Assembly: GCA_026391005.1 (NCBI GenBank)
Contig: JAPLEV010000049.1
Location: 1-64,000, forward strand
DNA: 64,000 bases
Direction of reading: 5' to 3'
Source: Flavobacteriia bacterium
GTDB taxonomy: Bacteria > Bacteroidota > Bacteroidia > Flavobacteriales_D > Crocinitomicaceae
Positions 2 through 57,725 of this stretch are shown here, in pieces. The notes under the pieces were generated by a model. The model worked only from the letters and a program-made list of their open reading frames with translations, did no database searches and was not told where the DNA came from. How positions within the stretch are numbered: the first letter of the stretch is position 1; each line of letters opens with the position of its first letter. A program made the translations under genes and the position numbers.

Positions 2-1375
2 TTTATCGTTAGCGCGGACATGTCCCGCATGGTAGGTTCTGCCGGATGGCTAATTATTTTATGGTTGTTAACGGGGTTTATTACCTTATTAGCAGCATTG
101 AGTTATGGTGAATTAGCGAGCATGATGCCGAAGGCCGGTGGGCAATTTGTCTACATTGAAAGAGCTTATGGTAAGTTTACTGCTTTTTTATATGGTTGGA
201 CTGTTTTTACGGTAATTCAAACGGGCGTAATTGCTGCTGTGGCAGTTGCATTCGCTAAATATACGGCTTTCTTTTTTCCTCAATTAGGACCGGATAACAT
301 CTTATTTAATCTATGTCCATTAAAGGTTTCGGCGGCTCAGGTATTTGCTATTTTTAGTATTTTCCTACTAACATTTATTAATACTCGTGGTATTCAAAGT
401 GGAAAAATTATTCAATTAATTTTTACTTCGGCTAAACTATTAGCGCTGCTCGCTCTCATTGTGTTGGGTTTGGCTATTGGTTTGAAAAGTGATGTCTTTT
501 CTCAGAATATGCAACACATGTGGGATACATCACATACATGGTCAAAAGGAGTAGGGGGGAACTGGACAGAATCAATTTCTCCCATTACAGGAATTGCTTT
601 AATTCTTGCGCTTGGAACGGCCATTATTGGATCAATATTTTCCAGTGATGCATGGAACAATGTTACCTTTATTGCTGGGGAAATTAAAAACCCTAAAAAA
701 AATATTCCACTAAGTTTATTAATAGGAACTTCGGTAGTAACTGTTTTATATGTGTTGGCTAATTTTGCCTATTTGGCGCTTATTCCCATACATGGCTCTC
801 CAGATGGCGCCGACGTCTTATCTCAAGGTATGCAATTTGCTGGAGGGGCGAATACTGATAGGGTAGGAACGGCCGCAGCGTCAATGATTTTTGGTGATTT
901 TGCTGCTGCTTTTATGGCGATTCTCATCATGGTTTCAACTTTCGGTTGTAACAACGGATTAATTCTTTCAGGAGCTAGAGTTTATTATGCGATGGCTAAA
1001 GACGGTTTGTTTTTTAAACGTGCTGGGAATCTAAATAAAAACGCTGTTCCTATGTTTGCCCTTGTATCTCAAGCAATTTGGGCAAGTATTCTGTGTTTAA
1101 GTGGCTCGTATGGCGATTTACTCGATTACGCCACATTTGCTTCCTTGTTATTTTACATCATTACGATTGCTGGTATTTTTATCCTTCGAAAAAAAGAACC
1201 GGCTGCCGATCGTCCTTATAAAGTAATTGCCTATCCATTAACACCTATTTTATACATTCTTATTGCCACGATAATTTGTACTATTCTACTCATTACAAAA
1301 ACACAATACAAAAACACAAAATACTTGTTTTGGACTACTTATTGTCGCTATAGGAATACCGGTTTATTATGGTAG
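2..1375 (+). CDS. APC family amino acid permease, truncated at left window edge and C-terminally frameshifted
   Basis: Reading frame is open to base 2 (FIVSADMSRMVGSAGW...), so the true start lies outside the window. APC-type motifs (AALSYGELASMMPKAGGQFVY). The C-terminal tail changes frame at a 13-bp tandem duplication. Confidence 0.9.
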   Translation, partial: FIVSADMSRMVGSAGWLIILWLLTGFITLLAALSYGELASMMPKAGGQFVYIERAYGKFTAFLYGWTVFTVIQTGVIAAVAVAFAKYTAFFFPQLGPDNILFNLCPLKVSAAQVFAIFSIFLLTFINTRGIQSGKIIQLIFTSAKLLALLALIVLGLAIGLKSDVFSQNMQHMWDTSHTWSKGVGGNWTESISPITGIALILALGTAIIGSIFSSDAWNNVTFIAGEIKNPKKNIPLSLLIGTSVVTVLYVLANFAYLALIPIHGSPDGADVLSQGMQFAGGANTDRVGTAAASMIFGDFAAAFMAILIMVSTFGCNNGLILSGARVYYAMAKDGLFFKRAGNLNKNAVPMFALVSQAIWASILCLSGSYGDLLDYATFASLLFYIITIAGIFILRKKEPAADRPYKVIAYPLTPILYILIATIICTILLITKTQYKNTKYLFWTTYCRYRNTGLLW

Positions 1376-1401
1376 AAAGTATTTTGCTAAATCTGAATGA
1401 T

Positions 1402-3039
1402 ATGAAGAAATTAGGATTGCTGATAGCTTACTTATTCCTTACTTTAGGAACGAAAGCACAAATCTATACACACCAAGATTCGTTAAGAGGAAGTATCACA
1501 AAAGAAAGGGCTTGGTGGGATTTGCAACATTATAGTTTACTTTTTGATGTTAATCCAACGACCAAAAGTATTTCGGGTTCAAATGTTATTCGGTATAAAG
1601 TCATTGCTGAAAATCAGTTATTGCAATTGGATTTACAAGCGCCAATGGCAATTCTTTCGGTTACCCAAGACGGCATTCCTCTCGTCATTAAACATGATGG
1701 CAAAGCCCATTTCGTTGAGTTAATAAAAAAACAAGTTGTTGGTGCACAAGAGGAAATAGTCGTTTTGTTTTCGGGTAAACCACTTGTTGCCAAAAATCCA
1801 CCTTGGGATGGCGGATTTACGTGGAAAAAGGACATCAATAATAACCCATTTATAGCCACTTCATGTCAGGAGATTGGAGCAAGTTTGTGGTGGCCATGTA
1901 AAGATCATATGTACGACGAGCCAGATCAAGGAATGTTGATTACCGTGACTGTCCCGAAAGGATTAGTTGCTGTTGCTAACGGTCGATTAAAGCAGGAAAA
2001 TCAAGATAATGCGCTTTCTTCCACGTATGTATGGGAAGTTAAAAACCCTATTAATAATTATGGCGTAAATATTAATATTGGTAATTATGTCCATTTTTCT
2101 GAAGTATATCCCGGCGAAAAAGGCCCTTTAGATATGGATTATTGGGTATTAAAAGAAAATTTGGAAAAAGCAAAAATTCAATTTAAAGATGCGACAAGGA
2201 TGATGAAAGCTTTCGAGCATTGGTTTGGCCCGTACCCATTTTATGAAGATAGTTACAAGTTAGTGGAAGTACCTTACCTTGGAATGGAACATCAAAGTTC
2301 GATAACCTATGGCAATAAATACAGCAATGGGTATTTAGGTTCCGATCTTAGTGGAACAGGTTGGGGAAAAAAGTTTGATTACATCATTATCCATGAATCT
2401 GGCCATGAATGGTTCGCTAATAATATCACAGCAAAAGATAACGCGGATTTGTACATACACGAATCTTTTACCACGTATTCGGAGGCGCTATTTGTGGAGT
2501 ATTTTTATGGAAAAACAGCTGGCTTTGAGTATGTACGAGGCTTACGTTCTGGCATCGCAAACAATAGCCCTTTAATTGGTAACTATGATGTGAATGACCC
2601 AAATAACTCGGACATTTATTCAAAAGGAAGTAATGTGTTGCATACTCTTCGGCAGTTAGTAGGTGATGATGATAAATGGCGTGAGATACTAAGGGGCTTG
2701 AATAAGCAGTTTTACCATCAAACGGTGAGTTCGAAGGACATTGAATTGTATATTGCAGCTTCATCGGGTTTAACATTAGCTACTTTTTTTGATCAGTATT
2801 TACGCGATGCCAGAATGCCGGTTTTTCAGTATAAAATTGAGGGAAAAAATCAGAAAAAACTGTCTTTTTGTTGGTCAGAATGTATCGATGGATTTGATAT
2901 GCGCTTGAAGATTAAGTATAACGATAAGGTCATTTATATATACCCCACTACAAAATGGTCAAGTATTCCTTTGGATAATAAATGTGAAGATATTATTATT
3001 TCTAAAGAATACTATGTTGGGGTAGAAAGGTTAAATTAA
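1402..3039 (+). CDS. M1 family metallopeptidase (aminopeptidase N-like), secreted
   Basis: HESGHEW (HExxH) plus downstream E in YIHESFTTYSEALF. The signal peptide MKKLGLLIAYLFLTLGTKAQ supports a start at 1402 rather than 1369. Confidence 0.93.
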   Translation: MKKLGLLIAYLFLTLGTKAQIYTHQDSLRGSITKERAWWDLQHYSLLFDVNPTTKSISGSNVIRYKVIAENQLLQLDLQAPMAILSVTQDGIPLVIKHDGKAHFVELIKKQVVGAQEEIVVLFSGKPLVAKNPPWDGGFTWKKDINNNPFIATSCQEIGASLWWPCKDHMYDEPDQGMLITVTVPKGLVAVANGRLKQENQDNALSSTYVWEVKNPINNYGVNINIGNYVHFSEVYPGEKGPLDMDYWVLKENLEKAKIQFKDATRMMKAFEHWFGPYPFYEDSYKLVEVPYLGMEHQSSITYGNKYSNGYLGSDLSGTGWGKKFDYIIIHESGHEWFANNITAKDNADLYIHESFTTYSEALFVEYFYGKTAGFEYVRGLRSGIANNSPLIGNYDVNDPNNSDIYSKGSNVLHTLRQLVGDDDKWREILRGLNKQFYHQTVSSKDIELYIAASSGLTLATFFDQYLRDARMPVFQYKIEGKNQKKLSFCWSECIDGFDMRLKIKYNDKVIYIYPTTKWSSIPLDNKCEDIIISKEYYVGVERLN

Positions 3040-33130: not shown

Positions 33131-35056
33131 TTACTTTGAGAAAATATAAAGCGTATTAATTACATCTAATAAATGTTTTCCCGAATTTTCCTCCCCATTG
33201 AATTTATAACTCATTTCAAATTTTGTAATTTTAGTGGTGGTCTTTGCGGATTTTAAATACATTTTACCCGACTTTCCCTTTAAGGAATTGATTAATTCAG
33301 ATCTTCGCTCACTTAATAGGTCGCTCGGAAAGCGATTAAGAGTCCCGGAAATATCTAAGTAGCCGTTCATAAATCCATTTCTTTTTATTTCCTTTCTTAC
33401 CTTTCTCCCTAACTGATCTGAGCCATAGCCATCTGAGTGGTTTATTGCTAAATCTTCATCATTCGTTAAAATAAAGAGATTGTTTTTGTTAATCATATAG
33501 AGCGGTGCTGCATCAAGAATAGCATTATTGAAAACCCAGTAATTATCGTGTTTTTCAAATTTACTGGTTAATCGACTAAAGTTTTTCAAAATTATTTCAG
33601 GTATGTCATGTCTATCTATAGAAAACCCTAGTGAGAATATTGGCATATCCTCTATTGCATCAACTTCCGTTTCATTGTATTCAAAGGTTATGTCATCATA
33701 TTTATAATCAATTTTTTTCGTTTTTATTTTTTTTATCCCATTAAATGTACCAAACATGCTCCCTTTGTAGGTGTCAAATAATGCATCCTTATTTATTAAT
33801 TCATTCATCAATTCAAGTGCAAGCACATTCATCGCTATATCAGCATTCTTTTCTGCTGAAATGATTGGCATAATTACTTCATATGCTTTGTCATATGCTT
33901 TTCGCAAATTCACATTGTAAGTAAAATAAGCTGGGCTATTTTTGTGAATATATTTAGTAATATTTTTATCGAATTTTGAATCATTCATTTCTTGATATAT
34001 CGAGCCTAATTTTTCGCCATATCTAGCTTCCACTAAAAATTCAAGCGATTTATCGTTTAAAATTAAGTCGCCTAAAATTACATTTCCGGTATAAAGTTCT
34101 TTAATGTCATTGTATAGAGATGGCATGATCGTCTGAAAATACCAAAGACCATTGGCTTGTTGGAAGCTTCTTGAGTTATCTAGATAAAAGGTGCCAGCAC
34201 ACTGATGTGTTAATTGTTCTGAAAAACGAGGGTCAATTGACAGCAATGTTAAATTATTGATGAATAAATCATTTAAAAGTTGCGTTAACAAGTATTGCTG
34301 AAGTTCTAATTGAACACTATCCCTAAGTTCATAATAATTTTTTTCATTCAGATCCTCGCTTGCCTCAGGAAAATCTTCAATCGAGATCTCTGTAGAATCA
34401 AAATAGAAAGGCGGATCTTCATTTAATTCTTCTTCTTCTTCTTCTTCTTCTTCTTCTACTTCTGCTTCCGCTTCATTTTGCTCGAAGTCGAAATCACCCT
34501 CATCAAATCCCTCGTCAAATAGAATCTCCTCCTCATACATTCCCCCATAAGGATATTCGTTTCCTCTTGAGTACCAGATTGAATCTGTTTTTCTGTCTAT
34601 AGACTCGGCAGTAGGTTCAATTCTAATAAGTAAAGCAGAATTATTTTTAAGGATTAGGTTATTGAAAAATGAGCCATATTCCTTAACGTCCTTATAATTG
34701 CTTTTAAGTTCTGTAAAGTCGTCAAAGACCTCGAATAATAAACTTGAATTATTAACGCCAAACGTAAAACCAGACACTTCGTAATCATCAGTTTTACCGT
34801 AAAAAACATTTAATCGTTGGTTAAAATCAATACCGGCATCTTTTAGTGTTTTTCCTGAGGTAGAACCGTCAAATAACTCCTGATGAACTTCCTCCATAAA
34901 GTCATATTTAACAAGGTCATCCATGGAAATCTTTTGCAAAAGATTTAAATTGTTTATACTAAAAACAGTTATGGCATTTTGGGGAATTAATTGTTCTGAT
35001 TGCGAAAAGCAGATAGAAAAATTAAATAATAATGATAAGAGTATGAGGTTTTTCAT
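33131..35056 (-). CDS. Hypothetical secreted DUF4836-like protein with a poly-Glu tract
   Basis: Signal peptide; LIPQNAITVFSINNLNLLQKISM; poly-Glu (10 residues) encoded by a GAA repeat. Confidence 0.65.
   Translation of the reverse strand: MKNLILLSLLFNFSICFSQSEQLIPQNAITVFSINNLNLLQKISMDDLVKYDFMEEVHQELFDGSTSGKTLKDAGIDFNQRLNVFYGKTDDYEVSGFTFGVNNSSLLFEVFDDFTELKSNYKDVKEYGSFFNNLILKNNSALLIRIEPTAESIDRKTDSIWYSRGNEYPYGGMYEEEILFDEGFDEGDFDFEQNEAEAEVEEEEEEEEEELNEDPPFYFDSTEISIEDFPEASEDLNEKNYYELRDSVQLELQQYLLTQLLNDLFINNLTLLSIDPRFSEQLTHQCAGTFYLDNSRSFQQANGLWYFQTIMPSLYNDIKELYTGNVILGDLILNDKSLEFLVEARYGEKLGSIYQEMNDSKFDKNITKYIHKNSPAYFTYNVNLRKAYDKAYEVIMPIISAEKNADIAMNVLALELMNELINKDALFDTYKGSMFGTFNGIKKIKTKKIDYKYDDITFEYNETEVDAIEDMPIFSLGFSIDRHDIPEIILKNFSRLTSKFEKHDNYWVFNNAILDAAPLYMINKNNLFILTNDEDLAINHSDGYGSDQLGRKVRKEIKRNGFMNGYLDISGTLNRFPSDLLSERRSELINSLKGKSGKMYLKSAKTTTKITKFEMSYKFNGEENSGKHLLDVINTLYIFSK
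34427..34457 (-). repeat. GAA/TTC trinucleotide microsatellite (about 10 units) encoding poly-Glu
   Basis: Uninterrupted TTC repeat on plus strand, in frame in the minus-strand CDS. Confidence 0.95.
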
Positions 35057-56195: not shown

Positions 56196-57725
56196 ATGGA
56201 AGTGCTATGGATTGTATTGGGTTTAGTCGGTGGTGGCGCAGCAACTTTTTTCGTTCAAAAGGTTTTGGTTAAATCCAAAAGTGAAGGGCTGATCAAAGAG
56301 GCAGAGCTGCAAGCTGAAAACATTAAAAAGGAAAAAATGCTTCAGGCTAAAGAGAATTTCTTGCGCCTTAAAGAAGAACATGAGGTGGCGATCAAAGACC
56401 GCGAAAGAAAGCTGCAGTCAAATGAAGACCGTGCGCGTGCTAAAGAGAAAAACATTGATCAAAAATTAGAGGACCTTGGCCGTAAAGAAAAAGTCACGGA
56501 AGGCCTACAACAGGATTTTGATGCTAAATTCCAGGGCTTAAACATCCGTATGCAGGAGCTTGATAAAATTCAAAGCAAGCGCGTTGCTGAACTTTCAAAA
56601 ATTAGCGGTATGCAACCGGAGGATGCTAAAAAAATGTTAATGGAGGCATTGACAGATGAAGCTAGAACGGGAGCCATGGCTCAAATAAAAGAAATTACGG
56701 AAGAAGCGAAGCTTAATGCTAATCGCGAAGCTAGAAAAATAGTCATTCAAACTATTCAACGTGTAGCAACGGAACAAGCCGTTGAGAATGCGGTTTCCGT
56801 TTTTAATATTGAATCGGATGAGGTGAAAGGTCGAATTATTGGTCGTGAAGGTAGAAATATCCGTGCCTTGGAAGCCGCAACTGGAGTGGAAATTATCGTG
56901 GATGATACGCCGGAAGCAATTATTCTTTCTTGTTTCGATCCAGTTCGAAGAGAAATTGCAAGGCTTGCACTCCATCAGTTGGTTTCTGATGGTCGTATTC
57001 ACCCTGCTAGAATTGAAGAGGTGGTCGCAAAAACACGCAAACAATTGGATGAAGAAATCGCAGAAACAGGAAGAAGAACTTGTATAGATTTAGGTATTCA
57101 TGGATTACATCCTGAGTTAATGCGCATGGTGGGAAGAATGAAATTCAGGTCTTCTTATGGGCAGAATTTGTTGCAACACTCTCGCGAAGTAGCGAACCTT
57201 TGTGCTATAATGGCTGCAGAGCTTGGATTAAACGTTAAACTCGCCAAACGAGCAGGACTTTTACATGATATTGGTAAAGTGCCTGATGAAGAGCCGGAAT
57301 TACCGCACGCTATTCTTGGGATGAAAGTCGCTGAGAAATTCGGAGAGAAAGGTGAGGTGCTTAATGCTATTGGTGCGCATCACGATGAAATCGAAATGAC
57401 TTCCTTAATTTCTCCCATTGTGCAAGTTTGTGATGCTATTTCGGGAGCTAGACCGGGAGCTAGACGTGAAATAGTTGAGACGTACATTAAGCGAATTAAA
57501 GAACTGGAGAATTTAGCGCTTTCGTACGATGGTGTAAGCAGTGCTTATGCTATTCAAGCTGGTAGGGAATTACGCGTGTTGGTGGAAGCAGAAAAAGTAA
57601 GTGACCAAAAATCGGAAGAACTATCTTTTAACATTTCGCAGCGTATTCAAACCGAAATGACGTATCCTGGACAAGTTAAAGTAACAGTTATCCGTGAAAA
57701 ACGATCCGTGAATTACGCTAAATAA
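56196..57725 (+). CDS. rny: Ribonuclease Y
   Basis: N-terminal TM and coiled coil, KH domain ([20 protein letters not shown]), HD domain (LLHDIGK). Confidence 0.97.

Follow-up and report, generated by a model that had tools for sequence, protein, structure and literature searches.

We find that the amino-acid permease gene at the start of the window (the whole stretch of 64,000 nucleotides that was analysed) carries a perfect 13-bp tandem duplication, that its relatives lack this duplication, and that with it the conserved last transmembrane helix (TM12) is lost from the protein. The best supported explanation, and one that we regard as probable, is a recent and private allele with lost or reduced function. 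The duplication would have arisen recently and in a single lineage, close to the 3′-end of a permease gene that is present once in the genome of an uncultured Crocinitomicaceae-related bacterium. Among named genomes, it is closest to metagenome-assembled genomes of Crocinitomicaceae and Flavobacteriales, and isolate names alone point to a probable freshwater origin.

Results

The unit TACAAAAACACAA is present on the plus strand as a perfect head-to-tail pair, with copy 1 at 1294–1306 and copy 2 directly adjoining it at 1307–1319; copies and coordinates agree exactly with those given in the first-pass annotation. When the sequence is compared with itself at an offset of 13, the match extends over exactly 13 bases, which corresponds to two copies with no partial third. 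No other perfect tandem repeat within the 64 kb has so long a unit, and in second-order Markov shuffles of the window (n = 40) units of at least 13 bp never occurred, and units of at least 10 bp occurred 0.2 times on average. No flanking microhomology was found beyond the duplicated unit at the 13-bp site, and slippage is therefore only a default explanation. The next longest perfect tandem unit (12 bp, 57442–57465) lies inside the RNase Y gene, in frame, and encodes GARPGAR, presumably a normal motif of the RNase Y family. It is most likely such a motif rather than a recent duplication, so a tandem repeat alone does not equal a mutation. A TTC trinucleotide tract (14 copies, 89% match, 34427–34468) was also observed inside a minus-strand ORF at 33131–35056 that has no Pfam match.

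The affected gene (2–1375, plus strand) encodes a LAT/SLC7-like permease of the APC superfamily; its 5′-end is cut by the contig edge, where the ORF is open, and its 3′-end is frameshifted. The ORF matches Pfam AA_permease_2 with an E-value of 1e-53 and 183 bits (cutoff 27). The best NCBIfam match is TIGR00911 (L-type amino acid transporter) at 169 bits, below the curated cutoff of 702, so the LAT/SLC7 subfamily is assigned by nearest relative only. When the intact relative L034 was used for a PDB sequence search, the closest solved structures were xCT, BasC and LAT2, and its predicted fold matched BasC (9h76) with an E-value of 3.4e-23 and TM-scores of 0.77/0.87. The first base of the window is also the first base of contig C19, and the permease consequently lacks about 30 N-terminal residues in the assembly; the upstream part of L034, used as a query, gave no match past the contig edge, and no other contig supplies the missing part. 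The permease gene of the relative G006 is also split, with one contig ending inside it and a second containing an overlapping N-terminal piece. A search for a second intact permease copy elsewhere in the genome returned only distant APC paralogues with 22–27% identity.

Thirteen bases do not make a whole number of codons, so translation departs from the ancestral frame after TM11, and TM12 is replaced. The frame as assembled ends in ...KTQYKNTKYLFWTTYCRYRNTGLLW*, with the stop codon at 1373–1375, and the out-of-register tail that replaces TM12 (1307–1375, plus strand) reads YKNTKYLFWTTYCRYRNTGLLW*. The coding remnant of TM12 persists out of frame at 1320–1400 on the same strand, where reading from 1320 gives NTCFGLLIVAIGIPVYYGRKYFAKSE* with TGA at 1398–1400, equal to the in-frame tail of L034. 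This bears out the earlier claim that one copy fewer would restore a tail ending at 1400, just before an ATG at 1402. The maximal 15-residue hydropathy is −0.12 in the window tail versus 2.15 in the frame used by the relatives, and a hydrophobic C-terminal segment is kept in all 78 homologues examined, with corresponding maxima of 1.2 to 3.3. AlphaFold predicts a confident last helix for L034 (residues 464–489, block pLDDT about 79–89), and for the window protein the final blocks have pLDDT values of 61, 48 and 40 over the last ~30 residues. The model still draws a helix in the new tail, at low confidence; the predicted body outside the tail is otherwise confident. Programmed frameshifting that would rescue the frame was considered and rejected: it would require a +1 shift, and a canonical signal was not seen by eye.

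The extra 13 bases are absent in eight of eight distinct close relatives (G006, G098, G076/L034, G104/L035, G105, G087/L036, G021/L037 and L038), which hold one copy and no counterpart of the other. Each pair joined by a slash was counted as one genome, since features such as identical alignments suggest that the two are the same. Those of them that were translated remain open through a TM12 tail such as NTCFGLLIVAIGIPVYYGRKYFAKSE. Their single copy and predicted tail agree with the proposal in the first-pass annotation that the last helix has been frameshifted in a recent loss-of-function allele. Homologues with the two-copy sequence, which would have spoken against that proposal, were looked for; all the relatives have one copy, and among the fetched loci the two-copy sequence occurred only in those from the window's own contig. 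An ancestral two-copy state was rejected on account of the single copy in every relative. The two-copy allele itself rests on one assembly, and the relatives with which it was compared are other species. No match to the permease was found in three same-genus genomes (G003, G026 and G033, 97–100% complete), which indicates that loss of the permease is tolerable.

Several observations bear on the age of the event. Over 9.3 kb of alignment to L035 and 5.3 kb to L034, coding sequence contains no uncompensated frame-changing indel other than the 13-bp insertion, as judged by reading the gap list against the ORF map, with "uncompensated" meaning that no nearby indel offsets it. Three base differences distinguish the out-of-frame tail (1320–1400) from L034 (AAT/AAC, CTA/CTG and TGA/TAA), and each would be silent if read in the ancestral frame; decay is thus not apparent, and the event appears recent and the allele young. 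Upstream of the tail, the window and L034 differ by 91 synonymous and 16 non-synonymous codons among 432, a pattern as would be expected for a gene constrained until recently. The gene shows what is looked for in a young pseudogene: a single disruption, private to one lineage and without further decay.

Downstream lies a gene for an M1-family peptidase (1402–3039, plus strand; Pfam Peptidase_M1, E-value 1.2e-18, and Peptidase_M1_N, E-value 1e-06) with its probable start at ATG 1402. The new permease stop (1375) is 27 bases before this ATG; in G006, L034, L035, L036 and G105 the permease stop and the next ATG are no more than a few bases apart. An upstream ATG in frame with the peptidase, at 1369, overlaps the new permease stop (ATGGTAG), and it is possible that this serves as a re-initiation site in the frameshifted allele. 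Given the proximity of the new stop to ATG 1402 and the overlapping ATG at 1369, the frameshift probably leaves translation of the peptidase in place.

Discussion

We suggest that replication slippage is the simplest reading of how the duplication originated. With the duplication, TM12 is replaced by a polar or aromatic tail of 20-odd residues that would end on the opposite side of the membrane, and most likely the product folds or assembles poorly, so that transport is lost or reduced. The start codon of the downstream peptidase gene is unaffected, its translation probably continues, and little effect on the peptidase would be expected.

The main rival to this explanation is an assembly artefact, in which a 13-bp overlap of contig pieces was joined without being collapsed, or mixed strains were wrongly merged, and the living cells have one copy. 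Such a mis-join would yield exactly the picture seen here; all relatives have one copy, and the permease gene otherwise looks intact. The contig furthermore begins within the permease gene, with the site 1.3 kb from its start, and the source appears to be a metagenome-assembled genome. The region is also a fine-scale mosaic of alleles of the relatives, as a mixture of strains could produce: between 1200 and 1420 the window resembles G006 and L035 to about 1246 and L034 from about 1254, which suggests either that related species have recombined or that strains were mixed in the assembly. On the other hand, the switch in nearest relative, at about 1247–1254, lies away from the junction, and L034 is close on both sides of the junction. 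De Bruijn assemblers use k-mers longer than 13 bp and would not create a 13-bp tandem copy from reads without one, and a search of the genome found a single version of the stretch. We consider an artefact unlikely, though less so than the two remaining alternatives.

Another reading is that the altered tail is tolerated or functional, and that the permease, with its ten-helix core retained, works despite ending in a new C-terminus. The ten-helix core of the LeuT fold does not include TM11 or TM12, so that some activity could survive, and the expected outcome is loss or reduction of function. The confidently predicted body of the window protein also speaks for a working permease. Against it, TM12 is kept throughout the 78 homologues, and the new tail is rich in polar residues, is modelled with low confidence and shows no sign of being conserved anywhere, and we regard a functional tail as very improbable.

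Least credible of all is a phase-variable switch, in which slippage would toggle between one copy (ON) and two copies (OFF) so that TM12 and transport vary reversibly: when its unit length is not divisible by 3, a perfect two-copy repeat could in principle drop a copy and restore the frame, but any such duplication can lose a copy by slippage, and the gene is a nutrient permease without a signature of recurrent switching. We would give as little credence to a reversible one-copy/two-copy switch of the last helix in natural freshwater populations. Literature searches yielded no usable precedent of a bacterial 13-bp tandem duplication with a measured reversion rate.

We thus favor a recent, private allele with lost or reduced function, which represents a clean case of a tandem duplication that disrupts the frame of a dispensable permease gene. 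Its significance is modest; alleles of this kind that are found in a single assembled genome need to be confirmed by reads before they are called switches.

Comparison with known systems

The permease is a broken member of the LAT/SLC7-type family (APC superfamily, TC 2.A.3.8), of which bacterial BasC (6f2g, 9h76) is an example. It shares the AA_permease_2 domain with this family, and by sequence and fold the best solved relatives are structures of xCT, LAT, y+LAT and BasC. The twelve-helix architecture of the family is present in relatives, including the intact L034, but fails in the window, where the permease has no in-frame TM12 and is truncated at the N-terminus by the contig edge.

The site resembles the contingency loci of simple-sequence-repeat phase variation in that the reading frame would depend on the number of copies. 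It differs from them in having only two copies of a 13-bp unit, in one state per genome, and in that the relatives never have more than one copy and no repeat tract at the site; each of the eight close relatives has a single copy, and two are found only in the window. To count as phase variation, a single locus must by the accepted definition switch reversibly and at a rate that can be detected without selection, and the review that gives this definition cautions against counting chance short tracts (PMC11868660, section 6). No sign of switching in either direction was seen at the site, and the idea in the first-pass annotation that the allele might be phase-variable therefore finds no support. 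The frameshift appears to be an ordinary mutation and gives no hint that a genetic switch has evolved, and nothing distinguishes it from the small tandem-duplication frameshifts of the slippage class, with which it shares a perfect head-to-tail copy, a unit that is not a multiple of 3 and restriction to one genome.
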